The notes under the pieces: generated by a model | What the model saw: the letters and a program-made list of their open reading frames with translations, nothing else | What the model was told of the DNA's origin: nothing | Database searches by the model: none | Origin: a virus | IMG/VR virus record: IMGVR_UViG_3300025694_000034 | Coordinates: 1 to 24,730 of that record | Length of the DNA stretch: 24,730 nucleotides | Direction: 5' to 3' (one strand) | Program-made: the position numbers and the translations under genes | Part shown: in pieces, positions 4,701 to 24,208 of the stretch | How positions within the stretch are numbered: position 1 is the first letter of the stretch | How the letters are laid out: every line of letters starts with the position of its first letter

Positions 4701-4838
4701 TTTATTAAAATGTTAGAAATGATCAAATGTCAATTCAAGACTGTCTTATTAATCTCGCATCTAGATTCTCTTAAAGATTGTGTTGAACAAACTATTGATA
4801 TACAAAAGAAAGATGGCTATGCTTTTGTAAATATTTAA
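1707..4838 (+). CDS. 47-46: Fused SbcD-SbcC / gp47-gp46 recombination endonuclease
   Basis: This 1043-residue single chain carries both halves of the Mre11-Rad50 (T4 gp47-gp46) complex. The N-terminal part has the metallophosphoesterase motifs D8-x-H10, GD44, GNH80D, LYH148 and GDIH184. From about residue 375 it becomes an SbcC/Rad50 ATPase: Walker A GKNYSGKS (396-403), a long coiled-coil middle, a hook-like CGDSFPTC (Cys715 and Cys722), the signature LSMGSGAEK (951-959), Walker B FILDE (Asp985-Glu986) and the H-loop LLISH (His1018). The family processes double-strand DNA ends for recombination-dependent replication. There is no stop or frame break between the halves. In T4 they are separate genes, so this is a genuine fusion unless a sequencing error removed a stop. 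It starts after AAAGGAG. Confidence 0.92.
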   Translation: MLACHISDTHIRNLKYHWEYRQSFADLYNKLRDQKPDVIIHTGDIAHTKTQLSPEYFELTAEFLSTLADIAPVIIIAGNHDGNLKNPDRQDAITPIVTALQHPNLTFLKNSGEYQFNNEITFNVLSVFDRENWVQPTDLSKINIALYHGSISGCETGQGFKIRDGDDTSEIFKDFDYAFLGDIHKPQVMDREGRVRYAGSTCQQNYGEDPRKGYLLWNIQSKDEFSVRHEVLVNPRPFLTINLTEDGELPETHIPPNARLRVVSRYNIPLTKLRQAVDAAETKWRPFSVTFVNKGAGSNSQNQGMLADGRFENLRDIQVQEEMIEEFLADKELGEGVLEKVLEHNKNYNRIAEEQEDVSRNVIWSIKEMQWDNLFNYGEKNKISFENLNGIVGIFGKNYSGKSSIVDSALYSIFNDTSKGERKNVHVINQNKDQARGRIDIQVGDNLYRITRDLAKITSSSNKVSAKVELDFAVFDGTEWQPLNGTTRNETDANIRRHFGTIEDFLLTSMASQMDSLSFVKEGSTKRKEILAKFLDLDLFDAKFKLAKKDTTETKSVIKHLRSMNWDLEIQKKQDILDDIEIDIIANNTRCKQIDSDLTLTSAELKALEEAINAIPAEIIDINKVNASIARKQDQIASLTSKNFALMAKTYDNKQTLSQVTTFVDTFDLEVLNQEKQRHNDLVCEKSSNSSDIRGLSTTILNEEKKMKLLDGIPCGDSFPTCKFIADAVKAQEGISDLKERMANLKMVSENIEAKISTLNIDEVEEKIASYYSIVSRKENLQTEIERDELQVENNKKQIKIINNDLETLFSTQSLYEENKEAIENKESYLTQRDHYVQKKQHLQKENEQCKVSLQEFYIEKGSTQQAIDGYTERKAELEDKEKEFIAQDLFLECMHSNGIAYNVIRQMLPVLNEEIAKILTNIVDFEVFFVDNGKSLDIMLKHPKYDGRPLSMGSGAEKTLSAMAIRLALISITNLPKSELFILDEPATALDQEHMDGFIKMLEMIKCQFKTVLLISHLDSLKDCVEQTIDIQKKDGYAFVNI

Positions 4839-4870: not shown

Positions 4871-4894
4871 GTGTAAAATAAGGGTATGCTTACA

Positions 4895-5329
4895 ATGAAA
4901 ATAACAAAAGAAGAACTTTCTAACATTATCAGAGAAGAAACAGCAGCTTGTCTTGCAGAATATGAAAAAGAGAAAGGTGCTGACGGCAAAGCTTGTTGGG
5001 ACGGCTATAAGCATGCTGGAACCGAAGATGGAAAAGATAAATGCGTCAAGATGGAAGAAGCAGAAACCATAGATGAAGAAACCGACAAAGATCGTATGGC
5101 TTGTAATAAACCTCGTTATATAAAAAAGGGTGAACCGGGCCACGGTAAGAAGCAAAAGGTTGTAAAAGCTTGCGATAAGGGCAAAGAAAATATTGTTCGT
5201 TTTGGTGATGCTAACATGAGAAACAATAGTGATAAACCTAAAAATAAAACAAACTTTAGAAAAAGACATAATTGTAAAGACAAAAAAGATAAAACAAAAG
5301 CTGGCTATTGGTCATGTAAGGATTGGTAA
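4895..5329 (+). CDS. Basic hypothetical protein with MKITK..L..IIREE leader
   Basis: A longer frame opens at 4886, but AGGG at about 4881-4884 is correctly spaced only for ATG 4895. That start gives MKITKEELSNIIREE, the same leader as three other genes here. The protein has 144 residues. After the leader come Cys-containing segments (CWDGYKHAGTEDGKDKC) and a Lys-rich body. The tail ends FRKRHNC...KAGYWSCKDW, a motif I associate with uncharacterised proteins of marine T4-like phages. It has no signal peptide or membrane helix. Strong positive charge and scattered cysteines would suit a DNA-associated internal virion protein, but that is inference. Confidence 0.6.
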   Translation: MKITKEELSNIIREETAACLAEYEKEKGADGKACWDGYKHAGTEDGKDKCVKMEEAETIDEETDKDRMACNKPRYIKKGEPGHGKKQKVVKACDKGKENIVRFGDANMRNNSDKPKNKTNFRKRHNCKDKKDKTKAGYWSCKDW

Positions 5330-5330
5330 A

Positions 5331-5780
5331 ATGAAATTAACAAAAGAAGCTTTAAAGCAAATAATCAAAGAAGAACTTGAAGGAGTTCTTGAAGCGTATA
5401 TGGGACCAATGGGACCACGAGGAAGAGGCGGCTATAAGCCATCGGGTCAACAAGCACGAATGGCCCCTGATCTAGCCTTCAAATTATTATCTTTCGGATG
5501 GAATGAGCTTGAGGAAGATCAAAGGCAAGAAATAGAAGCCTTGGCGAAAAGGCAAGCCGACATTGGCAAAACTAAACTTCGTGATGCTGTCGCGAAGGCG
5601 AAGAAGCCAGAAGTGGAAGAAGGTATGCTGGGGAAATTTAGAGATGCTATCATGGGACCTGAAACTGAAAAAGATAAGAAGGACGCAAAAGTCCGTCAAC
5701 AAAAGATGCAAACTAGAAAAACGCAAACCCCGTCTTCAAGCATGAAGCTCCGTGGTCCATTTGAAGAGGACAAAAAATAA
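5331..5780 (+). CDS. Hypothetical protein with MKLTKEALKQIIKEE leader
   Basis: The frame is open further upstream, but the start at 5331 follows the previous stop by one base, has AAGG upstream and yields the recurring leader. The 149-residue product then has a short Gly/Pro stretch (YMGPMGPRGRGGY), a compact helical part (LAFKLLSFGWNELEEDQRQE) and a charged, Lys-rich tail ending LRGPFEEDKK. Function is not recognised. The leader ends in I-I-K-E-E, which fits the T4 gp21 cleavage rule (Ile/Leu-x-Glu), so this may be a processed, capsid-packaged protein. It overlaps the next gene by TAATG. Confidence 0.6.
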   Translation: MKLTKEALKQIIKEELEGVLEAYMGPMGPRGRGGYKPSGQQARMAPDLAFKLLSFGWNELEEDQRQEIEALAKRQADIGKTKLRDAVAKAKKPEVEEGMLGKFRDAIMGPETEKDKKDAKVRQQKMQTRKTQTPSSSMKLRGPFEEDKK

Positions 5781-6112
5781 TGGATAAAGAACAAATAAAA
5801 GAACTTGGTGAAAAAGCTAAAGAAGAACTCAACGAACTCAAGGAAGATGTCAAAGAACGACTTGAGAGCGATGGAGTTTCTCTAGCAAAAGAAAAAGTCA
5901 AAGAGGTTGCTAAAAAAGTATCAACTAAAAATTCTTTGTTAGACAAAATGCTTGGGAAAATTATCTCTCGTAAATTGCTTGTATTTGTTACAGCAACTGT
6001 ACTTCTCGCACAATACGGCCTTGATCCAGACACTTGGGGAATGATTGCTATTGTTTATATCGGCGGACAATCTGTCGTCGATACAATGAAGATGTGGCGA
6101 CATGGAAGATAA
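5780..6112 (+). CDS. Small membrane protein, holin-like candidate
   Basis: This 110-residue protein has a charged, helical N-terminal half (residues 1-60, rich in Glu and Lys) and a C-terminal half with two hydrophobic segments, LLVFVTATVLLAQYGL and WGMIAIVYIGGQSVV, separated by a short polar turn. That is a hairpin membrane topology with the soluble part outside the bilayer. Its neighbours downstream look like spanin components, so a holin or holin-like role in lysis is plausible; no holin signature proves it. TAATG overlaps on both sides place it in a translationally coupled chain. It could instead be a structural or host-membrane factor. Confidence 0.5.
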   Translation: MDKEQIKELGEKAKEELNELKEDVKERLESDGVSLAKEKVKEVAKKVSTKNSLLDKMLGKIISRKLLVFVTATVLLAQYGLDPDTWGMIAIVYIGGQSVVDTMKMWRHGR

Positions 6113-6513
6113 TGAACCTACTCAAGCTTCGTAAGTACTGGCAACTTACTTGCTCTTTTGCCAAAGCGCATTGGAGAGGGTTAGTTGTGGGTGCTGCGAT
6201 GTTGCTGTGCTATTTCTACGGAAAGAAAGTAGAAAAGAAAATGAAGTTAGATAGAGCCATGGCCTTGGCTCAATGGGATAAAGACAAAAAAGAAATTGAA
6301 AGATCTTATGAGTCTGAAATGGCCAAGAAAGCCAAAGCCAAAGAAAAATATGATGCCGCCATGCTAAAGGCCGAAGAAGCTAGAAAAAATGCAACCGATG
6401 AATTTGACAGAGTAAAGGCAGCAGAATTAAAGAAAATGATTAAGAAAGCCAAGTCCGACCCTGATGAGATTGATCGAATTCTTGAGGACAGCTTAGGGAT
6501 AAAGAAAGTATGA
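6112..6513 (+). CDS. Membrane-anchored coiled-coil protein, inner-spanin-like
   Basis: The start at 6112 in the TAATG overlap is preferred over in-frame upstream codons, which lie inside the previous gene. The 133-residue protein has one membrane helix near the N-terminus (GLVVGAAMLLCYFYG, about residues 24-38). A long Lys/Glu/Ala-rich helix follows with strong coiled-coil character (about 40-115), then a short tail. Basic residues flank the helix on both sides, so orientation is not certain. An N-terminal anchor plus periplasmic coiled coil is the layout of Rz-type inner spanins. The following gene overlaps by ATGA and encodes another envelope protein, as in spanin pairs. Confidence 0.5.
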   Translation: MNLLKLRKYWQLTCSFAKAHWRGLVVGAAMLLCYFYGKKVEKKMKLDRAMALAQWDKDKKEIERSYESEMAKKAKAKEKYDAAMLKAEEARKNATDEFDRVKAAELKKMIKKAKSDPDEIDRILEDSLGIKKV

Positions 6514-6905
6514 TTTTATTATTATGGGCATCTCTTGCTTGGGGCGAAGCACAATTCACCCAACTAGAAGAAGGTGATGTTGCTCCGTTTGCTGGTCGCT
6601 TATTGAACGATGAAGCAATTTCAAAGCTTTTAGTAGATCAACAATTAGCTGGCGATGAATGCCAAATTGCGGTGGACTATGAGCTAGACATTGCTATGGC
6701 TCAATGGAGCTATCGAATGTCAATTCAAGAGCTAACCCTTGAAGGAAAGATCGAAAGATCAGAAGCTCTTGTTGAGTCTCAAAAAGAACAAATAGTATAT
6801 CTCCAACAACAAGTTAAACCAGCGAAGCCATTTATTTGGATCACAACGGGATTTATCGTTGGAACATTATCTTCGTTAGGAATTTACCATTCTGTTAAGG
6901 ATTAG
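6510..6905 (+). CDS. Signal-peptide and C-terminal-TM envelope protein, spanin-like
   Basis: This 131-residue protein starts with a hydrophobic leader (MILLLWASLAWGEA) and continues with a polar part containing APFAGRLLNDEAISKLL. A helical stretch with two or three heptads (residues 70-100) follows, and it ends with a membrane segment (FIWITTGFIVGTLSSLGIY). A secreted middle tethered at its C-terminus resembles unimolecular or partner spanins. The leader lacks a lipobox Cys, so it would not be a classical outer-membrane o-spanin. One Cys lies mid-protein in DECQI. The ATGA overlap with the coiled-coil gene suggests that the two products work together. The assignment rests on topology and context only. 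Confidence 0.48.
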   Translation: MILLLWASLAWGEAQFTQLEEGDVAPFAGRLLNDEAISKLLVDQQLAGDECQIAVDYELDIAMAQWSYRMSIQELTLEGKIERSEALVESQKEQIVYLQQQVKPAKPFIWITTGFIVGTLSSLGIYHSVKD

Positions 6906-6907
6906 CC

Positions 6908-7444
6908 ATGAGAGTAAAAATAAAAAGAAATATTAAAGAAGGCCCCAAAGAACTGACTCCGTTTAAGCTTTCTAATACACAAGACAAGATAGCCAAACAG
7001 ATAGAAGAGTTCTATGCGAAAAAGAAAAGATACAGCGGCATTGAAGAGATAGGCGAATGGAAAGGCTATGAACTTCGCAAGATAGTTGGTAAATTTGATA
7101 ATACACACAGATGGTTCTTATACGATGATGGAGAGCCAAAACTTTTTGTTAAGTTCTCCGGCTATGGCGATCCACAATCGTCAGAGTATGGATTACAAAT
7201 AAATAACATCCGCAAGACCAAAGGTGCTGAAGGTGAATTCAAAGCTAGTGATTTCTATAAGTTCCTCATGGAACAAGAAGATATAAACCCAAATGGTATC
7301 TTATACAGCGATAGCCAACAAACTCCCGGCGGTAAAGAAATTTGGGATAGACTGAGAGCAGACTCTCTGAGAGCAGACTCTAAAATTGATTTTAAAGACC
7401 TCGGCAATGTTTATCGAGCGAAATTTAAGGCAGAAGAATCATGA
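6908..7444 (+). CDS. Hypothetical protein, possible acetyltransferase-like fold
   Basis: This 178-residue soluble protein begins MRVKIKRN two bases after the previous stop. The later part, FYKFLMEQEDINPNGILYSDSQQTPGGKEIWDRL, has the look of proteins in T4-like phages annotated loosely as N-acyltransferase-like, where a Gly-Gly-Lys turn precedes a helix ending in Trp. No acetyl-CoA loop is clear enough to be sure. A 15-base exact tandem duplication repeats LRADS near residues 149-158. Its stop is shared in an ATGA overlap with the next gene, whose N-terminus (MRIKIIR) resembles this one. Confidence 0.5.
   Translation: MRVKIKRNIKEGPKELTPFKLSNTQDKIAKQIEEFYAKKKRYSGIEEIGEWKGYELRKIVGKFDNTHRWFLYDDGEPKLFVKFSGYGDPQSSEYGLQINNIRKTKGAEGEFKASDFYKFLMEQEDINPNGILYSDSQQTPGGKEIWDRLRADSLRADSKIDFKDLGNVYRAKFKAEES
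7352..7381 (+). repeat. 15-bp exact tandem duplication inside a coding gene
   Basis: The unit CTGAGAGCAGACTCT occurs twice in direct succession (7352-7366 and 7367-7381), duplicating the residues LRADS in frame. It looks like a recent slippage event that kept the reading frame. Confidence 0.9.
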
Positions 7445-7851
7445 GAATAAAAATAATAAGATCATCTAGCAAACTTGCATGCCCAAAGGCAACACAAGAT
7501 TTAGAATTAAATACAAAAAATAGAGATGCTTCTATTGAAGCAGAGCACATACAATACGGACCTCTAAACTTGACTGACGAAGGCTATTGGGAAAGAGCAG
7601 CAGATCATTGGAACACCGATGTAAAGACAGCCAAACAATCATTGTGCGGCAATTGCGTTGCATTTGATATTAGCCCTCGTATGGAAGAGTGCATGCCCGG
7701 TGAAGTATCTGACGGAGATGGAAAACTTGGTTATTGTTGGATGCATCATTTCAAATGCCATAGTGCTCGCACATGTTACACTTGGGCCGATGGTGGTCCG
7801 ATAAAAGAAGATAAAATATCAAATGATTGGCAGAAAAAATCGGAGGACTAA
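7441..7851 (+). CDS. Cysteine-rich hypothetical protein, HiPIP-like Cys spacing
   Basis: The 136-residue product begins MRIKIIRSSSKLACPKA in an ATGA overlap. The second half contains CGNCVAFD, EECMPG, GYCWMHHFKCHSARTCYTWADGGPI. That is a C-x2-C pair followed by several single cysteines near aromatic residues, recalling high-potential iron-sulfur proteins or a metal-binding knuckle. The cysteine region resembles an uncharacterised family I associate with marine T4-like phages. There is no signal peptide, so it would act in the cytoplasm or inside the virion. Iron-sulfur or zinc binding cannot be told apart from sequence alone. Confidence 0.55.
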   Translation: MRIKIIRSSSKLACPKATQDLELNTKNRDASIEAEHIQYGPLNLTDEGYWERAADHWNTDVKTAKQSLCGNCVAFDISPRMEECMPGEVSDGDGKLGYCWMHHFKCHSARTCYTWADGGPIKEDKISNDWQKKSED

Positions 7852-8225
7852 TGTCGAAAGATCCAAATTATGTTGTAAAAATAGAACAAGCGATAGCTGA
7901 AAAATACGGTGAAGAAACAATCCAAAATCCTAAAAAAACTTGGACCGATGAGAAAGAAAAACAATATATATCTCAGCTTAAGGATTTTTATTCTCCATCT
8001 GGTAGCGATGAAGAATTTGAGAAGAAAGAAATAAATGGTGTTTTAATACCAAAAAAACTACTTAATAGTGATTCTAATCGCTCATGTCCTGTTTGTTCTG
8101 TTTATACTACTAAATCACAAGACGATCTTTATTTTACTAAGTTTAGTTGTTGTTTTAAGTGTTATGTACAATGGGTAGAAGGCCGAGAAGAAAGATGGAA
8201 AACCGGCTGGAGACCAAGCAAATGA
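7851..8225 (+). CDS. Zinc-ribbon-like hypothetical protein
   Basis: The start at 7851, in a TAATG overlap with GGAGG directly upstream, is preferred over an in-frame ATG at 7827 inside the previous gene. The product has 124 residues. Its N-terminal half is polar and helical (KIEQAIAEKYGEETIQNPKKTW). The C-terminal half has CPVC and CCFKC pairs about 20 residues apart, a zinc-ribbon-like arrangement, followed by YVQWVEGREERWKTGWRP. The compact ribbon with aromatic and basic residues suggests nucleic-acid or protein contact. Its function is unknown. Confidence 0.55.
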   Translation: MSKDPNYVVKIEQAIAEKYGEETIQNPKKTWTDEKEKQYISQLKDFYSPSGSDEEFEKKEINGVLIPKKLLNSDSNRSCPVCSVYTTKSQDDLYFTKFSCCFKCYVQWVEGREERWKTGWRPSK

Positions 8226-8605
8226 AACTTACAACAAAAATTCTTAAGCAAATGATTGCTGAAGAGATGAACAATGCGGCACCTATTAAAGAAGGTTATA
8301 AAGAAGCCTTGGGTGAATTTCAAAATTTAGTACAAGAGTACAGCCTTAGTCGCGAAGACATTCTTGGAATAGCTGATATGCTTTTCCCTATAGACGAACA
8401 GCAATTGTCCGAGGGTATGGAAAATATTACTCCTGAGAATTTAGAACTTGTTCTGGATGCCGTAGTAAAAATGGCTGGTATTTTTGGACCAGCAATTATG
8501 GCTACTGTAACAGGGTCAGCAGTTTATAAACAAATCATGGGACGGAAAGCTGAAATTGATCAAGAAGCCGGATTAGATGAAACGAAGGTTAAAGAGGAAT
8601 TATAA
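8222..8605 (+). CDS. Hypothetical protein with MKLTTKILKQMIAEE leader and one TM segment
   Basis: ATG 8222 overlaps the previous stop (ATGA) and gives the recurring leader; the frame opens earlier only within the preceding gene. The 127-residue protein continues with an acidic helical region (EYSLSREDILGIADMLFPIDEQQ) and a hydrophobic stretch, MAGIFGPAIMATVTGSAVY, near residues 85-103. It ends in a charged tail. The leader again ends with an Ile-x-Glu-Glu. A membrane segment in a protein with a putative capsid tag would be unusual, so this member is the weakest fit to packaging and might be a membrane or ejected protein. Confidence 0.55.
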   Translation: MKLTTKILKQMIAEEMNNAAPIKEGYKEALGEFQNLVQEYSLSREDILGIADMLFPIDEQQLSEGMENITPENLELVLDAVVKMAGIFGPAIMATVTGSAVYKQIMGRKAEIDQEAGLDETKVKEEL

Positions 8606-8606
8606 T

Positions 8607-9143
8607 ATGAGTTCAACAACATTAGAAATTATACAAGGTCTTGCTCAAGCAGCCTCAAGAGCATACGATGGCGCTCATGTCGCTGATTACAACGACGATG
8701 GCCGTGAAAGATCTGCCGGTCTCAAAAGAGAAGAAGGAAACCCAATTATTGATAGTCGTGTTATTGATGGTTTCAAAGTTCGCTTTTCTGGTCCAACGAT
8801 GATCTTAACCTATCAGTCTGAGATCAAACTGAAAGAAGTTTATGCTGGTGGGTTTGAAAACGACATCGACAGACAACTAAACGAAATCAAAAAGTTTTTA
8901 CAAAAAGAATATAAAGTTATAACAGGCAACCCAATCACATTGACTAAAGATGGAGAAAGCAATATTCTTGTTCAATCTTCATCTCGTGTACACTCTTGGG
9001 TTCAAGCGACCCAAGTTTATAAAATTGGTAAAATTGATGCTGAAGGAATTCTTCAGCCATCTGAGCCAACAGTTCGTGAGGTCACAAAGAAGTTTTTAAA
9101 ACAAGCAAAAGCTAAACGACCGAGCAACGATACAAGGAAATAA
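8607..9143 (+). CDS. Conserved hypothetical protein upstream of terminase
   Basis: ATG 8607, preceded by AGAGGAA at good spacing, is chosen over in-frame codons inside the previous gene. The protein has 178 residues. It begins with a helical MSSTTLEIIQGLAQAASRAYDGA, continues through GLKREEGNPIIDSRVIDGFKVRFSG and LTYQSEIKLKEVY, and ends with a basic tail (KKFLKQAKAKRPS). I recognise the pattern as one found beside terminase in marine T4-like phages but know no function. It sits where a small terminase or neck gene could be, yet nothing in it shows a DNA-binding small-terminase fold. It joins terminase by TAATG. Confidence 0.5.
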   Translation: MSSTTLEIIQGLAQAASRAYDGAHVADYNDDGRERSAGLKREEGNPIIDSRVIDGFKVRFSGPTMILTYQSEIKLKEVYAGGFENDIDRQLNEIKKFLQKEYKVITGNPITLTKDGESNILVQSSSRVHSWVQATQVYKIGKIDAEGILQPSEPTVREVTKKFLKQAKAKRPSNDTRK

Positions 9144-10726
9144 TGGGATTTGAGTTATCAAAGAAGGAAATTGTAAAGGAAATTGTAAAATCTGGTAAAG
9201 ATCCGGTTTACTTTATAAACAACTATTGTCGTATTTCCCATCCCCTTAGAGGACTGATACCTTTCAAAACCTTCCCCTACCAAGATGATTTGGTACAAGA
9301 TTTTAATGATTTCCGTTTTTCGGTTATTCTCAAAGCCCGACAGCTAGGCATCTCAACGATTACTGCCGCCTACATTGTCTGGCTTATTTTATTTCACCGT
9401 GATAAGAATGTCATGGTATTGGCAACGAAATTTGCCACGGCTGCCAACTTGGTAAAGAAAGTAAAAGCAATGATGAAGAATCTACCAGACTGGATTCGCA
9501 TCACAGATATCTCAATTGATAACAGAACTTCGTTTGAGTTAACCAATGGCTCACAGATTAAAGCCTCGTCAACCTCTGGTGATGCTGGTCGTTCGGAAGC
9601 CCTCTCCCTCCTCGTAATTGACGAGGCTGCTTTTGTTGATGGCCTTGATGAACTCTGGACTGCTCTCTATCCTACTCTATCAACTGGTGGTCGTTGTATA
9701 GCCCTTTCAACGCCTAACGGTGTCGGTAACTGGTTTCACAAGACCTTTGTTGATGCTGAGGACAATCAAAACGATTTCAAATCTGTCGTACTCCCATGGG
9801 AGGTACACCCAGAGCGAGATCAAGAATGGTTTAGAAATGAAACCAAAAACATGTCGCGTCGTCAGATAGCACAAGAGCTTGAATGTAACTTCAACTCATC
9901 TGGTGAAAATGTTCTTAATTCCGAAGATATGGAATGGGTCCACACTTGTGTGAGCGATCCTGTCTATCGGGTAGGCTTTGATAGAAATTTCTGGATTTGG
10001 GAGAAGTATCAAGATGATTCTAAATATTTGCTGGTGGCTGATGTGGCTCGTGGTGATGGAGCAGATTATTCGGTTTTTCATATCATCAAGCTTGGGACAA
10101 TGGAAATAGTTGCGGAGTATCAAGGTAAGCCATCTCTTGACTTATATTCCGACATTCTCTTTGATGCTGGTAATGAATACGGCAAATGCCTTTTAGTTGT
10201 CGAGAACAATGGAATTGGCATTTCGGTTTTAGAAAAGCTAATCTTAAAAAATTACTCTAATCTCTACTATTCAATTAAAGGATCGCACGAATTCATCGAG
10301 CAACATAAGGCGGATTATGTATCCAATTCAGTTCCCGGCTTTACTAACTCTTCAAAAACTAGGCCACTAATTATAGCGAAAATGGAAGAGTACATAAGAA
10401 ACAAACTAATTACTGTTAGATCTTCACGACTTTTTCATGAATTCAAGACTTTTATTTGGCATAATGGGAGACCACAAGCAATGCGATCATACCACGATGA
10501 TCTGGTTATGGCGTTATCAATCGCATGCTGGGTTCGAGATACAGCGATAGAAGTAGACCAACGAGATGTAGCCTATAAGAAAGCAATGATGGGCGGCATG
10601 ATGATGTCTAAAACTCAAATGCAAACCACCATTAAGGGCCAATCGGCTCATAAAGAAGATTTTTATAATAAGCATAAAGATTCTATACAACAGACTAAAG
10701 ACTTTGTATGGATTTTTAAAGGATAG
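9143..10726 (+). CDS. 17: Terminase large subunit (gp17-like packaging motor)
   Basis: This 527-residue protein combines the packaging ATPase and headful nuclease. The Walker A-like loop is KARQLGIST (64-72), Walker B with catalytic Glu is LLVIDE (156-161), and the coupling motif is STPNG (189-193). The RNase H-type nuclease follows, with Asp300 (VADVARGDGADYS), Glu354 (VVENNGIG) and the acidic pair in YHDDLVMAL (Asp452-Asp453). It docks on the portal to pump DNA and cut concatemers. It is shorter than T4 gp17 (610 residues) but has all key residues. It starts in a TAATG overlap and is followed within four bases by the portal gene, without the tail sheath and tube genes that separate them in T4. 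Confidence 0.95.
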   Translation: MGFELSKKEIVKEIVKSGKDPVYFINNYCRISHPLRGLIPFKTFPYQDDLVQDFNDFRFSVILKARQLGISTITAAYIVWLILFHRDKNVMVLATKFATAANLVKKVKAMMKNLPDWIRITDISIDNRTSFELTNGSQIKASSTSGDAGRSEALSLLVIDEAAFVDGLDELWTALYPTLSTGGRCIALSTPNGVGNWFHKTFVDAEDNQNDFKSVVLPWEVHPERDQEWFRNETKNMSRRQIAQELECNFNSSGENVLNSEDMEWVHTCVSDPVYRVGFDRNFWIWEKYQDDSKYLLVADVARGDGADYSVFHIIKLGTMEIVAEYQGKPSLDLYSDILFDAGNEYGKCLLVVENNGIGISVLEKLILKNYSNLYYSIKGSHEFIEQHKADYVSNSVPGFTNSSKTRPLIIAKMEEYIRNKLITVRSSRLFHEFKTFIWHNGRPQAMRSYHDDLVMALSIACWVRDTAIEVDQRDVAYKKAMMGGMMMSKTQMQTTIKGQSAHKEDFYNKHKDSIQQTKDFVWIFKG

Positions 10727-10729
10727 AAG

Positions 10730-12667
10730 ATGGCATCACGAAAAAAAACAAGAAATGGTAAAAACCCAAACAACGAAAATAATGAATTATTCAAAGCGCT
10801 GACTAGATTATTTTCAGGACCTATTGTAACTCGACGGACTCAAACGGGTCGTGATTTACGACGACGACATTTAGATGTCTACGCCAGTCAGTTCCGTACA
10901 CCTTCTGGACAACAATTTAAAAAAATTGATCAGTATAGTCCACTAACTCAACTCGGAGCCAATATGGTTGCTAATCGCAACCGATCCGAAAGATATATAG
11001 ATTTTGACGAGATGGAGTATACACCAGAGATTGCTTCGTCATTAGACATCTATGCGGATGAAATGACAACACACTCAGCCTTACAGCCCATGCTTAATGT
11101 TAAGTGTACTAACGAAGAAATTAACTATCTTCTTCAAAACCTTTATCACAAAGTTCTTAATATAGATTACAACCTTTTTGGATGGTGTCGTACCATGTGT
11201 AAATACGGAGACCTATTTCTTTATTTAGACATTGATGATAAAATGGGAATCCAAAATGTAATTGGCTTACCTCCTCAAGAGATCGAAAGATTAGAAGGCG
11301 AAGATCCTGCTAATCCTAATTATGTTCAATACCAATGGAATTCCGGTGGACTTACCCTTGAAAACTGGCAAGTTGCTCATTTTCGTATTTTAGGTAATGA
11401 CAAATTTGTGCCTTATGGAACTTCTGTATTAGAACCAGCTAGAAGGATTTGGAGACAATTGATTTTACTTGAAGATGCGATGATGGCATATCGAATTGTT
11501 CGATCTCCTGAGCGTCGTGTTTTTAAAATCGATGTTGGTAACATCGCACCTGAAGATGTAGAACAATACATGCAGAAGGTTATGACTCAGATGAAGAGAC
11601 ACCAAGTTGTTGATCCATCAACTGGTCGTGTAGACCTTCGCTACAATCCTCTTTCAATTGAAGAAGATTATTTTATTCCTGTCCGAGGCGGCAGTACCTC
11701 AGAAATCTCTAATTTACCCGGAGGACAATTTACTGCTCAGATAGAAGATGTTAAATATTTACGAGACAAACTCTTTTCAGCTTTAAAGGTACCTCAATCA
11801 TATCTATCGATGGGAGAAGGAGCAACTGAAGATAAAACAACCTTAGCTCAAAAAGATATTCGATTTGCTAGAACAATTCAAAGACTACAGAGAGTGGCTA
11901 TTTCTGAATTAGAAAAAATTGGAATTATTCACTTATATACTTTAGGATTTAGAGGCGATGATCTTCTTAGCTTTAAACTATCTCTTAACAACCCATCAAA
12001 GATAGCTGAACTTCAAGAGCTAGAACACTGGAAACAGAAGTTTGAAGTTGCCGCTGCTGCTACTGAAGGATACTTTTCAAAGCGCTGGGTCGCAGAAAAT
12101 ATGTTTGGAATGTCCGCAGACGAATTTGTTCGTAATCAACGAGAGATTTTCCATGATAAGAAATTTTCTGTTGCTCTTGAAAATGTAGGACAACCAGATG
12201 AAGAAGCCGGAGGCGGCGGTGGTGGCCTTGGAGATCTTGGCGACCTTGGTGGAGATGACCTTGGTGGTGATGAAGATTTAGGTGATCTTGACTTAGGTGC
12301 TGGTGACGAAGGTGAAACAGAAGATGCTGGTGGTGACGAGGAAACAACCCTTTTAGCCACACCTCCCGCCAACAGAGATGATGGCAAGCGAGGACCTTAT
12401 AAAAGACACAAATCTTCATATGATAAAGGAAGATTAACAAAGAATTATAAGAATGTCGCTACTTCGGGTGAAGTCCGTGGATCAACCAAAAGAACCACCT
12501 TTCCGGGTAAGATGGGAGATAGCGGTCTTGACTCTTTAACTAAAGGAATGTTTGAAGAAATAATAGTGCATGAGGATTTAGAAGAGAAAAAACTATTTAA
12601 AACAAACAATGAGATTAAAAGTTTACTAGAAAGCTTAATTATTAGGGATGACGAAGATGAAACATAA
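10730..12667 (+). CDS. 20: Portal protein (gp20-like) with C-terminal extension
   Basis: This 645-residue product is the dodecameric head vertex channel through which terminase packages DNA. Portal-type features include the N-terminal PIVTRRTQTGRDLRRRHLD, YTPEIASSLDIYADEMTT, the stretch AHFRILGNDKFVPYGTSVLEPARRIW, SPERRVFKIDVGN and the C-terminal core LFSALKVPQSYLSMGEG, all close in style to T4 gp20. From about residue 494 a Gly/Asp/Leu-rich linker (repeated GDLG and DDLG) leads into a basic segment and an acidic helical tail, making it about 120 residues longer than T4 gp20. The next gene begins inside its last codons. Confidence 0.93.
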   Translation: MASRKKTRNGKNPNNENNELFKALTRLFSGPIVTRRTQTGRDLRRRHLDVYASQFRTPSGQQFKKIDQYSPLTQLGANMVANRNRSERYIDFDEMEYTPEIASSLDIYADEMTTHSALQPMLNVKCTNEEINYLLQNLYHKVLNIDYNLFGWCRTMCKYGDLFLYLDIDDKMGIQNVIGLPPQEIERLEGEDPANPNYVQYQWNSGGLTLENWQVAHFRILGNDKFVPYGTSVLEPARRIWRQLILLEDAMMAYRIVRSPERRVFKIDVGNIAPEDVEQYMQKVMTQMKRHQVVDPSTGRVDLRYNPLSIEEDYFIPVRGGSTSEISNLPGGQFTAQIEDVKYLRDKLFSALKVPQSYLSMGEGATEDKTTLAQKDIRFARTIQRLQRVAISELEKIGIIHLYTLGFRGDDLLSFKLSLNNPSKIAELQELEHWKQKFEVAAAATEGYFSKRWVAENMFGMSADEFVRNQREIFHDKKFSVALENVGQPDEEAGGGGGGLGDLGDLGGDDLGGDEDLGDLDLGAGDEGETEDAGGDEETTLLATPPANRDDGKRGPYKRHKSSYDKGRLTKNYKNVATSGEVRGSTKRTTFPGKMGDSGLDSLTKGMFEEIIVHEDLEEKKLFKTNNEIKSLLESLIIRDDEDET

Positions 12668-13460
12668 TAAGAAAAGAAATACCGCTTTTCTTTACGAGTG
12701 CTTAGTTAAAGAATTAACAAAGGCAATTGTTAGAAATCAAGATGAAAGAAAACAAAAAATAGTAGAGATACTAAAGAATTATTTTTCATCAGGAACAGTC
12801 CTTAAAGAGGAATTAAAAATTTATAGTTCTCTTCTTGAGGGAACAGGTCACACAGATAATTCTCAATCTCTTAGGGTAATCTACGAGATCAAGAAAGATT
12901 ATGAAAATTTAGATCGCAAGAAAGTCTTCAATGTACAGACTACCTTGATTAAACAAATAAACGAAACATTCACTCCAAAAATCTTTTCTAATTTTGTGCC
13001 CAATTATAAAAACATAGCTACTGCTGGGCTATTTTTTAATCAATCAAGGCTCCCTGCCAAAAAGCGACTTTTAATTGAAAAGCGTGTAATAGAGTTTCGT
13101 ATTGAAAAATTAAATGAATCCAAAATGCAACACATAGACAATCTTACTTATAAGACTTTTGTCAACAAATTTAACGAAACCTATTCCGAATCGTTGAGAC
13201 CGGAACAAAGAGATTTATTAACTAATTTTATTGTGTCTTTCTCGGACAATGGCTTAGGTTTAAAATCTCATATGAATGAAGAGATAGGAAGATTGAAAAA
13301 ATCTTTATTAAATCTTGAAAATAATACATATGTCGATAATGCTCAAAAAGTTGTCGATAAACTCAATAATTTTAGCAAAAGGCGCATAGACGAACAAATG
13401 CTTAGGGATCTCTTTTACATCCAAGATTTAGTCTATGAGGTAAAGAAAAATGGCAATTAA
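12657..13460 (+). CDS. Conserved head-module protein after portal
   Basis: ATG 12657 is preferred over 12648 because GGGA upstream is correctly spaced only for it; both lie within the end of the portal gene. The 267-residue protein is rich in Lys, Asn and Leu, mostly helical, and starts MKHNKKRNTAFLYECLVKELTKAIV. No catalytic motif is visible. T4 carries the small core genes 67 and 68 after gene 20, so a prohead core or portal-associated role is possible from position; the sequence itself does not match gp67 or gp68 recognisably. It overlaps the next gene by 11 bases. Confidence 0.6.
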   Translation: MKHNKKRNTAFLYECLVKELTKAIVRNQDERKQKIVEILKNYFSSGTVLKEELKIYSSLLEGTGHTDNSQSLRVIYEIKKDYENLDRKKVFNVQTTLIKQINETFTPKIFSNFVPNYKNIATAGLFFNQSRLPAKKRLLIEKRVIEFRIEKLNESKMQHIDNLTYKTFVNKFNETYSESLRPEQRDLLTNFIVSFSDNGLGLKSHMNEEIGRLKKSLLNLENNTYVDNAQKVVDKLNNFSKRRIDEQMLRDLFYIQDLVYEVKKNGN

Positions 13461-14067
13461 TGTTAAATTAGCAGGTAGTTCCCAACTGCCTCCTCCCGAT
13501 ACTTCAATCAGTGTCTCAATTAATCCTTCTTCGCCTAAAATTGGAGTTGCCTTAAACAACCCAAAAATAAATGAAGTTAAATTTAATTTAAATATTCGTG
13601 AAGCAAATAATGGTGATTTAATGATTTTTGATCATCCTGAAATTGATATTGTGGTTATGGTAGAGCAAAAAAAGGTTATGACATTTGCTAAAGATTTAGC
13701 AACAGATACAGTTTATGGAACTTCTAGTCGTCTTATGGAAAGACTTCGACGAAAAGGAATACTTCAATTTGACACCATACAGGGTGGGAATATCTATGGT
13801 TCTCTAGAGGGAATCATGTTAGAAATGAAAAACACTGAAAAGAAAGATAATTTAATTCCACTAGTTCTCAACCAGATTTCAGAATGGATTGAAGAAGAAC
13901 GACCGGCATGGGTTAGCATGGAAGATTATGAACAAATGTATGATGATTATTTAACCCATCCTGATGCTGAAGATTCAACAGCACTTGGCAAGGTCCCCGA
14001 AAAAGCAGAGAAAGGCTCAATCCGCCCTTACATTTTCGGCGCCTATCCATACGGGGGCTATTACTAG
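13450..14067 (+). CDS. Conserved hypothetical head-module protein
   Basis: This 205-residue soluble protein starts within the preceding gene. Residues 1-50 are a Pro/Ser/Asn-rich, strand-forming region. The middle is well ordered: LMIFDHPEIDIVVMVEQKKVMTFAKD, then YGTSSRLMERLRRKGILQFDTIQGGNIYGSLEGIML. An acidic segment follows, and the tail ends IRPYIFGAYPYGGYY. No known domain is recognised. Its place between portal and protease suggests a part in head assembly, and Tyr/Gly-rich termini often make docking contacts, but that is conjecture. Confidence 0.55.
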   Translation: MAINVKLAGSSQLPPPDTSISVSINPSSPKIGVALNNPKINEVKFNLNIREANNGDLMIFDHPEIDIVVMVEQKKVMTFAKDLATDTVYGTSSRLMERLRRKGILQFDTIQGGNIYGSLEGIMLEMKNTEKKDNLIPLVLNQISEWIEEERPAWVSMEDYEQMYDDYLTHPDAEDSTALGKVPEKAEKGSIRPYIFGAYPYGGYY

Positions 14068-14069
14068 AG

Positions 14070-14411
14070 ATGAATATAAGCTTTTTAGAATTTGACGCAG
14101 GCTGGCTTTGGTTTATCCTCGCCGCATACGGCCTCACACAAATTCTTGTTTATGGATCAGTCTTTGATAAAATCCGTCCTGCTAAGGATGCTTATCGTGG
14201 CTGGGGTAAAGTTTGGCATTGTCCTATGTGTATGGGTTTTTGGGTTGGTGCCCTTTTATTCACCTTAAACGGCTTTACCGAACTATTTACATTTGATTAT
14301 ACATTCGCAAACTTTTTAATTTGCGGGTGGATGGCATCAGGAACATCGTATTTTTTGAGTATGCTTGTGAACGATGACGGAATAAAGATTAACACTAAGG
14401 AGCAATCATGA
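14070..14411 (+). CDS. DUF1360-like small membrane protein
   Basis: This 113-residue protein has three hydrophobic helices: LWFILAAYGLTQILVY, a second after the motif WHCPMCMGFWVGALLF, and LICGWMASGTSYFLSML. The C-x2-C pair within HCPMCMGFW at the membrane edge is the hallmark of DUF1360-type proteins, a family present in phages and bacteria whose function is not known to me. Its Shine-Dalgarno sequence is weak (GGGGG about 12 bases upstream), so translation may depend on the preceding gene, which stops two bases earlier. Its stop TGA overlaps the start of a micro-ORF. Confidence 0.7.
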   Translation: MNISFLEFDAGWLWFILAAYGLTQILVYGSVFDKIRPAKDAYRGWGKVWHCPMCMGFWVGALLFTLNGFTELFTFDYTFANFLICGWMASGTSYFLSMLVNDDGIKINTKEQS

Positions 14412-14461
14412 CTAAGAAATGGATGTTACAACCAGTTCGTCGCTGTTGCAGCGGGTCCTAA
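14408..14461 (+). CDS. 17-residue micro-ORF, possible leader peptide
   Basis: ATG 14408 overlaps the stop of the membrane-protein gene (ATGA) and has a strong AAGGAG seven bases upstream. It encodes MTKKWMLQPVRRCCSGS and stops at 14459-14461. ATGA coupling recurs throughout this genome, which supports real translation. The end of the frame contains a small hairpin (CGCTG-TTG-CAGCG) and a GC-rich hairpin follows immediately. It could be a regulatory leader peptide whose translation governs termination, or a tiny Cys-Cys functional peptide. It is too short for similarity-based proof. Confidence 0.5.
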   Translation: MTKKWMLQPVRRCCSGS

Positions 14462-14463
14462 CT

Positions 14464-14486
14464 CGGGCGGGTAGCGCCCGTTTGAA
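14464..14486 (+). terminator. GC-rich hairpin, terminator or attenuator
   Basis: CGGGCG (14464-14469) pairs with CGCCCG (14475-14480) over a five-base loop, followed by TTT, GAA and TTTT. The stem is strong for such AT-rich DNA, but the U-tract is interrupted, so termination may be partial. It lies three bases after the micro-ORF stop and upstream of the gene at 14505. Confidence 0.6.
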
Positions 14487-14504
14487 TTTTATGAGAGACT
14501 AACA

Positions 14505-14849
14505 ATGAAACTTACAAAAGAAAGACTTAAACAAATTATTAAAGAAGAAATAAGCAAGGTTACTGAAGTATATGGTAATTATATTCCCGGTGAGACAGCA
14601 CCCGGAAATACTGATATGGGTTACGGCAAGGCTCCGCAAGACGATCTTGAGCCGAATGCTCCACGAGAAATTACTGTTGATGAAAGAGAACAACTAGAAT
14701 CTATAGTCAGACTAATGACTTCTGATGAGCTTGTAGATCTTATGAGTAAGTTGGATGATGAAACAAAAAAACTTGTAATGAAAGACTTTTTGGGACAATC
14801 AGGACGCAACAATGAATTTGGTAATCCAGCTTATGATTTAGAGCGATAA
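14505..14849 (+). CDS. Acidic protein with MKLTKERLKQIIKEE leader, next to protease
   Basis: This 114-residue protein starts with the clearest copy of the recurring leader. A Gly/Pro-rich stretch (YIPGETAPGNTDMGYGKAPQD) follows, then an acidic helical domain (ITVDEREQLESIVRLMTSDELVDLMSKLDDETKKLV) and the tail NEFGNPAYDLER. It lies directly upstream of the prohead protease, a position where T4 has the small core genes 67 and 68. That makes a core or internal head protein likely by context. Ile12-x-Glu14 fits the gp21 cleavage rule. Confidence 0.62.
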   Translation: MKLTKERLKQIIKEEISKVTEVYGNYIPGETAPGNTDMGYGKAPQDDLEPNAPREITVDEREQLESIVRLMTSDELVDLMSKLDDETKKLVMKDFLGQSGRNNEFGNPAYDLER

Positions 14850-14850
14850 A

Positions 14851-15459
14851 ATGTCTAAGAAACTTTTACAAGAATATTACGAACTATGCCCCGATGGTAT
14901 GTGTCCCGACCTTCTCACCGAAAGAGAGAAGAAAGAGATCTCCAATGGAGCAATGTATTTAACAGGCCGTATTCAGACTGCCGACAAGCAGAACGGAAAT
15001 GGACGAGTGTATCCTTTTGAAGTCCTAAAGCGTGAGGTCGATAATTATAAAAAGATTGTTGCCGACCATCGTGCTTGTGGAGAACTTGATCATCCAGATG
15101 ACTCTGTGGTGAATCTCAAGAATGTATCACACATGATTGTTGATTGCTGGTGGGAAGGAAAAGATGTAATGGGCAAAATGAAAGTCCTTGACACTCCTTC
15201 TGGCAAGACACTAAAAGAACTTATAAATGCTGGAGTTAAGCTCGGCATATCTTCTCGCGGACTTGGGTCTGTTAGAGAAAGCATGGGCAAGACAGTTGTT
15301 GAAAATGATTTCCAATTAATCTGCTTTGATATTGTCTCAGAACCATCAACTCCAAATGCTTTTGTCTCACCAGACAAGCAAGCAGCATCTCCCATGAGAA
15401 TGCGAGAGAACAAACAAAATACAATTGACGATCTATTTAACAAGATCTTGAGGGATTAA
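14851..15459 (+). CDS. 21: Prohead maturation protease (gp21-like)
   Basis: This 202-residue serine protease shows the herpesvirus/T4-type prohead protease fold. YLTGRIQTADKQNGNGRVYP is the typical first strand pair, GELDHP supplies the catalytic His81, and LGISSRGLGS supplies the nucleophile (Ser134 or Ser135). FDIVSEPSTPNAFV closes the domain. In T4 the enzyme sits inside the prohead and cuts scaffold, capsid and internal proteins after Ile/Leu-x-Glu. Potential substrates in this window are the scaffold, the capsid protein and the MKLTK-leader proteins. It overlaps the next gene by TAATG. Confidence 0.92.
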   Translation: MSKKLLQEYYELCPDGMCPDLLTEREKKEISNGAMYLTGRIQTADKQNGNGRVYPFEVLKREVDNYKKIVADHRACGELDHPDDSVVNLKNVSHMIVDCWWEGKDVMGKMKVLDTPSGKTLKELINAGVKLGISSRGLGSVRESMGKTVVENDFQLICFDIVSEPSTPNAFVSPDKQAASPMRMRENKQNTIDDLFNKILRD

Positions 15460-21226: not shown

Positions 21227-22429
21227 ATGTCTTCAATGTTAGAACAAGCGATTATTGATGCTACCACACTTCGCGAAGCAGCACTTAAAAGTGCGGAACA
21301 GGCCATCATTGAAAAATATGCCCCTCAAATAAAAGATGCCGTTGAGCACCTATTAGAAAATAATGACCCACAACCCTCAATGGCTGTCGGATCATTTGTA
21401 AAGCACCTTGAATCTAATCAAACTGGACATATACGATCAATTGATGAAGATGGATATCAAGTCGAAGGCGTAGATGGCCAAGTTTTCTTGGCAGAAGCAG
21501 ACGAGCTAGAAGAAACCGAAGTGCTTCAAGAAGAAGAAATGGGTGGAAATATTGCCTCTGTTGCAACATCTCAAGCCGTTGAAGCACCAATAGCTTCCGC
21601 TCCTGCTAGTGTCGTAGACCCTAACGCAGAAGCAGAACTCTCAATGGAGTTTGAATTTGATCCGTCCGATTTTGAAATTGATCTCGGAAGTATTCAACAA
21701 CAAGCTCAAGCAGATCCAGACTCATCAGGAGAAACCCCAATTTCTACTTCTGAATTATTAGATGATCTCACTAATGAGCCAGAAATTGAAACTGATGAGA
21801 ATACAATTGATGCTGAACTAGAATTACAAGAAGTTGTTGATCTTGTCTCTGAAATTCTCGCCGAAGAGGAAGAAGTGATTGAAGAAGAACTAGTTGTAGA
21901 TACAAGCCAACAAAAGCATGGTTGGACAGTTACAGATGTAGGAACACGCACCTACGACCAAGAATTAAGTCTTGCAAGATTGCAAGGGACAGAAGCCAAG
22001 AAGGAAAATGAACTCCTTAACAAAGCCCTTGAAGATATCAAAGAGACAATGAATAATAATAAAAAAGATACTTTACAAATCATTGATGTTGTAAAGCAAC
22101 TAAAAGAAAAACTCGATGAGACCCTTATTTCTAATGCTCGTCTTGTTTATATGAATAAAACTTTAAGCGATGCCTCCCTGAATGAGCGACAAAAACATAA
22201 AATTGTTGAAGCCATCGCAACGGCAAACTCAGCCGAAGAAGCTAAGACTCTACATGAGACTCTAACTGCTACAGTGGGATCAAGTTCTAAAACTGCTCCA
22301 AAATCACTAAGCGAGTCTGTAAATAGAAAATCTAATCTTTCTTCGATGATGCCTAGGCGAAATGATAATGTGGTTACCGAGTCCCTGTCATTTGCTGATA
22401 GAATGAAAAAACTCGCTGGTATTAATTAA
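21227..22429 (+). CDS. 22: Prohead core scaffold protein (gp22-like)
   Basis: This 400-residue protein is strongly acidic and helical, with a Glu-rich centre (SEILAEEEEVIEEELVVD) and a C-terminus LSFADRMKKLAGIN, an end typical of T4-like gp22 proteins. In T4, gp22 builds the assembly core on which the capsid forms and is then degraded by gp21. Many Ile/Leu-x-Glu sites here would allow that. Residues about 53-92 (GSFVKHLESNQTGHIRSIDE...GYQVEG) look like a small beta-barrel insert, unusual in a scaffold. It is longer than T4 gp22 (269 residues). The gene lies directly upstream of the capsid gene, as in T4. Confidence 0.8.
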   Translation: MSSMLEQAIIDATTLREAALKSAEQAIIEKYAPQIKDAVEHLLENNDPQPSMAVGSFVKHLESNQTGHIRSIDEDGYQVEGVDGQVFLAEADELEETEVLQEEEMGGNIASVATSQAVEAPIASAPASVVDPNAEAELSMEFEFDPSDFEIDLGSIQQQAQADPDSSGETPISTSELLDDLTNEPEIETDENTIDAELELQEVVDLVSEILAEEEEVIEEELVVDTSQQKHGWTVTDVGTRTYDQELSLARLQGTEAKKENELLNKALEDIKETMNNNKKDTLQIIDVVKQLKEKLDETLISNARLVYMNKTLSDASLNERQKHKIVEAIATANSAEEAKTLHETLTATVGSSSKTAPKSLSESVNRKSNLSSMMPRRNDNVVTESLSFADRMKKLAGIN

Positions 22430-22453: not shown

Positions 22454-24208
22454 ATGTCTATTATAGAATCTCTAACAGAGGGTATGGTCCAACGCGATAT
22501 GGCGAAAGAAGGTGCCGCTCTCTTAAACAAATGGAGCCAAACAGGACTTCTTGAAGGATTGGAAACAGATCACTCAAGAACGACTATGGCTCGATTGCTT
22601 GAAAACCAAGCCAAGGAACTTCTTCGTGAAGCTTCTACAATGGCTTCTGGGGATGTAGAAGGTTTTGCTTCTGTCGCATTTCCTATCGTTCGTCGCGTAT
22701 TCGCCGGACTTATTGCTAATGATCTTGTAAGTGTTCAACCGATGTCTTTGCCATCTGGTTTGATCTTCTTCCTTGACTTTACAACATCAGCAGATGGTGC
22801 TGGTCTTCCAAGACTTGGATATCCAACTCCTGCTAGTTCACTCTATGGTGGTGGACGAATTGCTGCTCAAATTACCGGTGGTGTAATTTTGACTGGTCAA
22901 GATGCTGAACGCGGTCCTTACGCGCTCAACAACGGTTATTCATCTCCTACAGCAAGTATTGCTATTACAACAACACTTGTTGGTTCAGGTACTGTTGGTG
23001 AAGGTGGAACTTCTATTTTCGCATCACCACAGAAAGGCGCACTTGGTGGCACTGATTATGACAACATTACTCTTCTTGATTTTGATGTTGACCTTGTAAG
23101 TGGTTCTGCTTGGGCCGCTGCTACAGTTCCAAAATCACTACTTACAACTGGTCAATTCAATTTTGATGATTATATAACCATCTCTATGACTGGTTCTGGT
23201 GGAGCTACTGACGGTGCTCTTGTTCGACGATTAACTCGCGAAGATCCTTATAATTCTGCTAATGTACTTTTCATCTTGGGTGCTACTGGATCAGAAAACG
23301 CAACAGCCATGGCAACTGAGCTTGATGCTACAACTGCTGCTAACGCTGCTATCACTGATAACTTTACCAATGGTGGATCTGTTGGTTCTATTATTGGAAC
23401 AGACACATGGGGATTAGAAAACAATCCTAACATTCCAGAAATCGACATCAAAGTTGATTCTGTAGCAATCACTGCTGTAACTAAGAAATTGAAAGCAAAG
23501 TGGACCCCTGAATTGGGTCAAGACTTGAATGCTTACCATAACTTGGATGCTGAAGTGGAATTGACTTCAATTCTTTCTGAGCAAATTGCTCTTGAGATTG
23601 ATCAAGAAATCCTTGAAGATCTTATTCGTGGTGCTGAAGCTGGTGTTTATTACTGGTCTCGTTCACCGGGTCTTTTCGTTAATCGTACTACTGGTATTGA
23701 AGTTGGAGCTTCTTCTGCTGCTCCTGATTTCACTGGTACCGTATCAGAATGGTATGAAACCCTTCTTGAAACGATTAATGATATCTCAGCCCAAATCCAT
23801 CGTAAGACACTTCGTGGCGCTGCTAACTTTGTAGTTTGTGGACCAGAAGTTGCTAACATTATGGAATTCACCACTGGTTTCCGAGCCAATGTAACTGCTG
23901 ACGCAGACAAAGGTGACATCGGCGCTGTTAAGGTTGGATCTCTTTCAAGAAAGTTTGATGTATATGTTGATCCATACTTCCCACGGAACCTTGTTCTCGT
24001 AGGTCGTCGTGGTAATTCATTCCTCGAAAGTGGATATGTATATGCTCCGTATGTACCTCTCCAAGTGACACCTACCATCTTCGGCCCAGAAGACTTCGTT
24101 CCTCGCAAAGGCGTAATGACTCGCTATGCGAAGAAAATGGTTCGTCCTGACATGTACGGTCTTGTTATCGTTCGTGGACTTCTTGGTGAGTCTGGTTCTT
24201 CTGTCTAG
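22454..24208 (+). CDS. 23: Major capsid protein (gp23-like)
   Basis: This 584-residue HK97-fold capsid protein is close to T4 gp23 in several blocks: IVRRVFAGLIANDLVSVQPM, LKAKWTPELGQDLNAYHNLDAEVELTSIL with LEIDQEILEDLI, and FDVYVDPYFPRNLVLVGRRG followed by SGYVYAPYVPLQ. Residues 57-60 read L-R-E then A, a good gp21 cleavage site, so about 59 residues would be removed on maturation. Residues about 150-330 form a Thr/Ser/Gly-rich stretch that probably holds the surface insertion domain and explains its extra length over T4 gp23 (521). A GGAGG site precedes the start. A strong terminator follows. Confidence 0.95.
   Translation: MSIIESLTEGMVQRDMAKEGAALLNKWSQTGLLEGLETDHSRTTMARLLENQAKELLREASTMASGDVEGFASVAFPIVRRVFAGLIANDLVSVQPMSLPSGLIFFLDFTTSADGAGLPRLGYPTPASSLYGGGRIAAQITGGVILTGQDAERGPYALNNGYSSPTASIAITTTLVGSGTVGEGGTSIFASPQKGALGGTDYDNITLLDFDVDLVSGSAWAAATVPKSLLTTGQFNFDDYITISMTGSGGATDGALVRRLTREDPYNSANVLFILGATGSENATAMATELDATTAANAAITDNFTNGGSVGSIIGTDTWGLENNPNIPEIDIKVDSVAITAVTKKLKAKWTPELGQDLNAYHNLDAEVELTSILSEQIALEIDQEILEDLIRGAEAGVYYWSRSPGLFVNRTTGIEVGASSAAPDFTGTVSEWYETLLETINDISAQIHRKTLRGAANFVVCGPEVANIMEFTTGFRANVTADADKGDIGAVKVGSLSRKFDVYVDPYFPRNLVLVGRRGNSFLESGYVYAPYVPLQVTPTIFGPEDFVPRKGVMTRYAKKMVRPDMYGLVIVRGLLGESGSSV

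Follow-up and report, generated by a model that had tools for sequence, protein, structure and literature searches.

The stretch of DNA analysed here, hereafter the window (24,730 nt, IMG/VR record IMGVR_UViG_3300025694_000034, positions 1-24,730), raises the question of why four of its proteins share the N-terminal leader MK(L/I)T..LKQIIKE. The window represents part of a T4-like phage genome; a terminase, a portal protein, a gp21 protease and a gp23 capsid protein were recognised in it (PHROGs/Pfam), and its head-gene order resembles that of T4. A first-pass annotation had proposed that the leader targets its proteins to the capsid and is then removed by the gp21 homologue. The core of this idea is well supported by the independent sequence tests described below, but two corrections are needed, one to its novelty relative to T4 and one to the position of the cut. 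We propose that the leader is very probably a prohead-loading propeptide resembling the T4 capsid targeting sequence (CTS), expanded into a general cargo code. As judged from sequence, it is a modular tag which ends in (I/L)xE, occurs with gp21 and is exchanged with two other tags of like design.

The four N-termini are as had been claimed (MKITKEELSNIIREE at 4895, MKLTKEALKQIIKEE at 5331, MKLTTKILKQMIAEE at 8222 and MKLTKERLKQIIKEE at 14505), each having I-x-E at residues 12-14 followed by E. The bodies behind them are indeed otherwise unrelated, representing four different BLAST clusters, and the gp21 homologue placed at 14851 is likewise borne out (Table 1). For three of these genes the longest open reading frames (ORFs) begin further upstream, at 4886, 5229 and 8159; since the leader is conserved, the starts at 4895, 5331 and 8222 are favoured. 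The search of related phages for the leader pattern that had been suggested revealed many further tagged proteins. In a first sample of 80 loci around gp21 relatives plus three further records, a loose leader motif was present at 111 ORF starts in 83 records including the window, every one on the gp21 strand. With the window left out there were 107 matches, compared with a mean of 0.05 per shuffle of 11,210 stop-to-stop frames, and the leader is therefore not due to chance. A Shine-Dalgarno-like stretch lies upstream of 96 of these 107 starts. A first profile recovered 155 tagged ORFs, 151 bodies of which fell into 105 BLAST clusters, and a profile of residues 1-16 gave 737 matches in all loci fetched by then, corresponding to 595 non-redundant tagged proteins, many of the loci behind this set having been chosen by a leader pattern. 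The expectation that the set would be larger elsewhere holds for relatives; G008, a 43-kb record of essentially the same virus (proteins 99-100% identical), has only these four.

The number of profile matches per contig was 8-11 in G001-G004 and reached 27 in G013, 26 in G014, 32 in G030 and 22 in G029:C25, which are larger or denser contigs (100-306 kb) whose reversed DNA gave 0 matches in each case. Tandem arrays of short tagged genes were seen in G013, G014 and G030 (L246-L260, L266-L281, L286-L299). A cellular origin of the leader was considered and rejected, as the exact degenerate pattern was found in 7 stretches (5 contigs, 4 metagenome-assembled genomes) among 84,980 species genomes compared with at least 120 stretches in viral contigs, a comparison that leaves looser variants aside. 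Contigs filed under bacterial metagenome-assembled genomes (L240/L243/L244, NHDW01000006.1, 305838 bases; L242, PBIO01000025.1) carry tag arrays and look like phage, and NHDW01000006.1 additionally matches terminase, portal, gp21 and gp23. Of the named phages, immuto and Mel-JY01 each had a single weak profile match and the 484-kb uncultured phage LR756508 had 16, with no match in RM378, LR756511, RAS14, cyanophage ACG-2014d or T4. A tblastn search of cultured phages with a 22-residue consensus and two tagged proteins found no match, perhaps through the low-complexity filter, and one with the tagged protein L056:9280 found four records sharing some 26% identity with it, including two annotated as polynucleotide kinases. 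In the open-access literature, to which the search was confined (subscription journals and preprints lay outside it), neither the tag strings searched for nor a paper combining 'capsid targeting sequence' with phage, N-terminal and metagenom was found.

Conservation within the 595 leaders peaks at residues 14, 12 and 8, followed by residues 2, 4 and 11, and continues to residue 22 before fading. When proteins were selected on residues 1-11 alone, (I/L/V/M)12-x-E14 was present in 506 of 522, with I or L in 495 and E15 in 439. In a looser set, 18 of 539 proteins were without the (I/L/V/M)xE end at residue 14, and half of them (9/18) had (ILVM)xE at residue 18, compared with 49/521 of those having the residue-14 motif (Fisher p 2.4e-5), a shift of one helical turn. 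Beyond the selected residues, (I/L)xE was found in the 595 proteins at residues 18 (54), 19 (26), 21 (56), 22 (167), 26 (15) and 27 (26), against a low and flat background of 1-10 per position at residues 28-45, the latter being the last position examined. In the phages' capsid proteins, L-(R/K)-E is located ahead of the mature domain in 13 of the 13 distinct proteins aligned, incomplete ones (<450 residues) having been left out, and P4 is hydrophobic in 12 of the 13. From its place we infer that L-(R/K)-E is the cut of the capsid protein. The same type of site thus occurs on the tag and on the phages' own capsid protein, marking the tag as a candidate gp21 substrate. T4 gp21 is described as cutting after L/I-x-E, with CTS residues 4 and 7 serving targeting and residues 8 and 10 processing, in the account given by PMC9026906. 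Counted from the cut, these four correspond to leader residues 8, 11, 12 and 14.

Two further tags were found beside the leader, which we call class A. Blind clustering of N-termini, which used no cleavage rule, returned for T4 a group with MKTYQEFIAE twice, MKTFKEFIKE, and MKTFKEFTST without a site, alongside paralogue groups; we take this group to be the known CTS. In the jumbo contig G013 the same approach gave class B, MKxLRQYIRQ(I/V)LLE, on 14 proteins, of which 12 have (L/I/V)xE at residue 14 and the other 2 have it one position further on. In immuto, a cultured phage of Flavobacterium sp. LMO8, it gave four proteins with MKKS(Q/E)(L/I): KNV73_gp095 and gp080 have IKE at residues 10-12, gp072 has VQE there and LEE ending at residue 16, and gp094 has no such motif. 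An MKVGDLV-like N-terminus on several small proteins of G002, G030 and G029:C25 showed no (I/L)xE peak. Class C, ENWRKFLKE-like, emerged from the gp21 neighbours. Profile and pattern searches together gave 617 distinct proteins with A, 29 with B and 48 with C, the B and C counts beyond blind clustering coming from patterns that contain the (I/L/V)xE end. Tags A and B are 14 residues long by construction, and C, measured from the nearest upstream Met, has 14 residues in 20 of 48 proteins and 16 or 17 in 22. All three classes have hydrophobic or aromatic residues at positions -6, -3 and -2 from the final E, which the B and C patterns partly require. Class C resembles T4 MKTYQEFIAE in both spacing and aromatics (W/F..(F/Y)-(L/V/I)-x-E), again partly by construction of the pattern, and class A in spacing only.

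Mixed tag classes were present in 8 of 78 multi-member body clusters. Some of these 8 depend on one weak link, for example one in which 51 residues match the end of a protein of 625 residues. The clearest exchanges are an AAA_33 P-loop protein (L056:9280 with A, L014:4062 with C, 67% identical) and a protein of unknown function (L053:9415 with A, L040:7802 with C, 75% identical). Also among the best are another A/C pair, 63% identical across 115 residues, and one A/B pair, 75% identical across 55. It had been claimed that the tag differs from that of T4; its sequence does, but its key residues share the T4 spacing and a T4-CTS-like tag replaces it on homologous proteins. The same pairs bear on the position of the cut, which had been placed after residue 14. 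Compared by eye, the bodies of the three A/C pairs start behind E22 where they carry the long A tag and behind E14 or E16 where they carry tag C; those of the A/B pair, whose A tag is of the short form, start behind E14 with either tag. Removal after residue 14 is therefore probable for short tags, but long tags contain a second (I/L)xE, for which residue 22 is the commonest position, and cutting probably takes place at whichever (I/L)xE comes last in the tag rather than always at residue 14.

The C-terminal domain of the 4895 protein allowed the presence of a tag to be followed across phages. It is untagged in CRP-3, HTVC106P and SIO1, all three of which are without Peptidase_S77. In the Kyanoviridae phage C48C1, which encodes the gp21 protease, it carries a T4-type CTS (MKKFKQYIDE), and it carries tag A in the window virus, in G001 (diverged), in L225 and in G030. 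The homologues in G014 and G004 have other N-termini, ending in ILE and INE. In G013 (37954-38459) the reading frame of a 4895-type gene apparently changes after the tag and before the domain, splitting the gene. A protein at 7441-7851 of the window has no recognised tag, yet by eye the similar L239:2843 protein starts with tag C, MRLLLENWRRFLAE, and this is perhaps another gain or loss of a tag.

The tag also occurs with the protease in records chosen by the leader pattern. Peptidase_S77 was detected in 16 of 20 such records, namely 14 of 16 viral contigs and 2 of 4 metagenome-assembled genomes, the 16 contigs being all those of at least 70 kb among 80 listed of the at least 120 leader-pattern matches. 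Among viral contigs of the same size from 80 listed matches of an arbitrary 14-mer, 3 of 12 had Peptidase_S77 and none of the 12 had the leader. The two gp21-less viral contigs (98.6 and 90.6 kb) may be fragments, and the 98.6-kb one resembles a piece of the G015 virus, which has gp21. In G029 the tags and the protease are on separate contigs. LR756508.1 (L307) has two Peptidase_S77 matches at 156507-158102, each in an open frame listed as 576 residues long; the protease may be fused or interrupted.

We suggest that the leader would form an N-terminal amphipathic helix, its hydrophobic residues being 8, 11 and 12 and continuing with 16, 19 and 20 in long forms, and that this helix would dock the protein onto the scaffolding core of the growing prohead. 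Next, gp21 would cut after the terminal (I/L)-x-E: at residue 14 in short tags, and in long tags most commonly at 22 but at times at 18, 21 or 27, with several of these sites perhaps being cut in the same tag. Cutting would free the protein within the head, where it may remain with the packaged DNA in the virion and probably be delivered into the host. An AlphaFold model of the 14505 protein (helix 5-19; predicted local distance difference test score 47.8) was of too low a quality for use.

In a search of Pfam and PHROGs, the 584 complete, non-redundant tagged proteins were represented by their 150 longest members, and few of these matched a family. The Pfam matches included RNase T-like exonucleases, an AAA_33 P-loop protein, a GNAT acetyltransferase, YkuD, and leucine-rich and pentapeptide repeats, together with a match under the cut-off to a tRNA-ligase-type phosphodiesterase, presumably of the 2H superfamily. 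No capsid, tail or replisome protein was present among the best 25 of 41 Pfam and 25 of 27 PHROGs families, save one PHROG named DNA polymerase exonuclease subunit. PADLOC recognised DEDDh twice and PglZ once. Such mostly unknown and diverse cargo fits the pattern of the T4 internal proteins, which PMC3012670 presents as highly diverse defence proteins with only the CTS conserved. The cargo may have a role in host takeover or anti-defence. It might be argued instead that the tag makes these proteins part of the scaffolding core, like T4 gp67, gp68 and gp22, to be cut up and lost. The 14505 gene does lie at the position of T4 gp67/gp68 and there are several (I/L)xE sites inside the tag; nevertheless this is unlikely, given how diverse and in part enzyme-like the bodies are and how low and flat (I/L)xE is over residues 28-45.

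Several observations weigh against a cargo-loading propeptide, besides the pattern dependence of the class B and C counts and the weak links within the mixed clusters. The 4895-domain homologues of G003, immuto and L221 are without a recognised tag, though G003 and immuto have gp21. The 16 leader-chosen contigs are not all independent, since G024 resembles a fragment of the G015 virus, and in the scan only 16 of 49 genes immediately upstream of gp21 and 5 of 74 immediately downstream had tag A, one further neighbour, L030, being tagged but missed owing to its start codon. The end is weaker in some sets, (I/L/F)xE at residue 14 being present in 31/44 proteins of the G014 cluster, 35/43 of G030 and 6/20 of LR756508, where V often stands for I. 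The tagged arrays of G013 and G030 are distant from gp21 and the head genes, and several bodies (RNase T-like exonuclease, AAA_33 P-loop protein, GNAT) resemble enzymes for which a cytosolic role is conceivable. The last two points, together with the helix-like pattern of hydrophobic residues, would also suit a helix that docks onto another phage or host structure, such as RNA polymerase, a membrane or a replication site, with (I/L)xE a side effect of amphipathicity. We regard this as quite improbable, since E14 is nearly invariant in proteins chosen without using it, its loss is accompanied by xE at 18, the tag is exchanged with a T4-CTS-like tag, and one domain is untagged in three gp21-less phages. 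Codon identity among tags within one contig is 0.45-0.71, compared with 0.37-0.49 expected from codon usage, and part of the tag similarity is therefore recent descent; tandem duplication or a DNA-level element was nevertheless rejected as the main cause, as the bodies are mostly unrelated and the codons vary. That recent gene duplication spread the tag as a homologous segment which has no targeting role, as this codon identity and the tandem arrays might suggest, is highly improbable in view of the dispersal of bodies over 105 clusters, the equal spacing of three tags of different sequence on homologous bodies, and the lack of an (I/L)xE peak in the MKVGDLV N-terminus from the same blind search.

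Table 1. Tags, tagged proteins and head genes of the window
Feature	Position	Strand	Remarks
Class A tag, 14 codons, MKITKEELSNIIRE	4895..4936	+	Profile score 32.4 (scored in G008)
Possible second site, LAE, at residue 22 of the 4895 protein	runs to 4960	+	
Tagged protein	4895..5329	+	C-terminal domain (~residues 57-144) is phrog_7595; one relative annotated HVA1 family
Class A tag, MKLTKEALKQIIKE	5331..5372	+	Profile score 57.3 (in G008)
Tagged protein, function unknown	5331..5780	+	No family match
Class A tag, MKLTTKILKQMIAE	8222..8263	+	Profile score 31.3 (in G008)
Tagged protein with hydrophobic stretch	8222..8605	+	Homologues in L004, L008 and L076 also tagged
Terminase large subunit	9143..10726	+	
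Portal protein gp20	10730..12667	+	
Class A tag, MKLTKERLKQIIKE	14505..14546	+	Gene immediately upstream of gp21; T4 gp67/gp68 at that place
Tagged protein, predicted prohead core or cargo protein	14505..14849	+	
gp21-type prohead protease, predicted cutter of tags	14851..15459	+	Peptidase_S77, E 1e-30
Probable scaffold protein gp22	21227..22429	+	From position and conservation only; no family match
Major capsid protein gp23	22454..24208	+	
LLRE, predicted gp21 cut of major capsid protein after residue 59	22619..22630	+	P4-P1 pattern equals IIKE of the tag

The best-ranked matches of the window capsid protein in phage records were to uncultured phage LR756508, followed by Flavobacterium phage immuto and Microcystis phage Mel-JY01. 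Just past the gp21 region, at 15880-16095, a 71-residue basic protein has what we take to be a resemblance to ribosomal protein bS21, and a gene of Mel-JY01 at a similar place is annotated RpsU. At 1707-4838 a single 1043-residue ORF presumably joins the functions of gp47 (phosphoesterase) and gp46 (ATPase), which we take to be separate genes in T4; almost full-length homologues of this ORF are found in G002, G003 and G004.

The proteins that a phage carries and injects are usually unknown without proteomics. If the tag has been read correctly, it is a compact, swappable packaging signal that would make hundreds of cargo proteins, most of them belonging to no known family, predictable from sequence in uncultured marine and jumbo phages, and the tagged set would be a likely reservoir of host-takeover and anti-defence proteins. 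With less assurance, we lean towards a modular addressing code in marine T4-like and jumbo phages, in which several exchangeable tags of one design (hydrophobic residues 6, 3 and 2 before the final glutamate, usually residue 14) load from about 10 to more than 30 different proteins per virion, mostly unknown injected effectors. Virion cargo, anti-defence proteins included, could in that case be read directly from sequence.

The principle of such a tag is not new; what is new is its sequence, length, multiplicity and scale. Like the T4 CTS of IPI, IPII, IPIII and the Alt propeptide, described in PMC9026906 and PMC3012670 as cut by gp21 after (L/I)xE, it is a short N-terminal peptide on different proteins with key residues equally spaced from the cut, and the T4 CTS was recovered by the same blind search. 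Unlike the 10-residue CTS it has at least 14 residues with second sites at 22 or 27, differs in sequence in A and B, and exists in three classes, with 8-32 profile matches per long contig compared with 3-4 tagged proteins in T4. SPN3US gp53 and gp54 and other phiKZ-type head proteins also have propeptides removed by the prohead protease, and PMC5694885 describes gp53 and gp54 as having the first 15 residues in common in spite of divergence elsewhere; several of these propeptides exceed 100 residues, however, the motif is AxE or SxE, and gp53 and gp54 are paralogues. Finally, the MuF-fused and polyvalent virion effectors are packaged effectors, proposed in PMC9503650 to include ADP-ribosyltransferase and 2H domains, but they are addressed via fusion to structural domains and not by a short cleavable tag.

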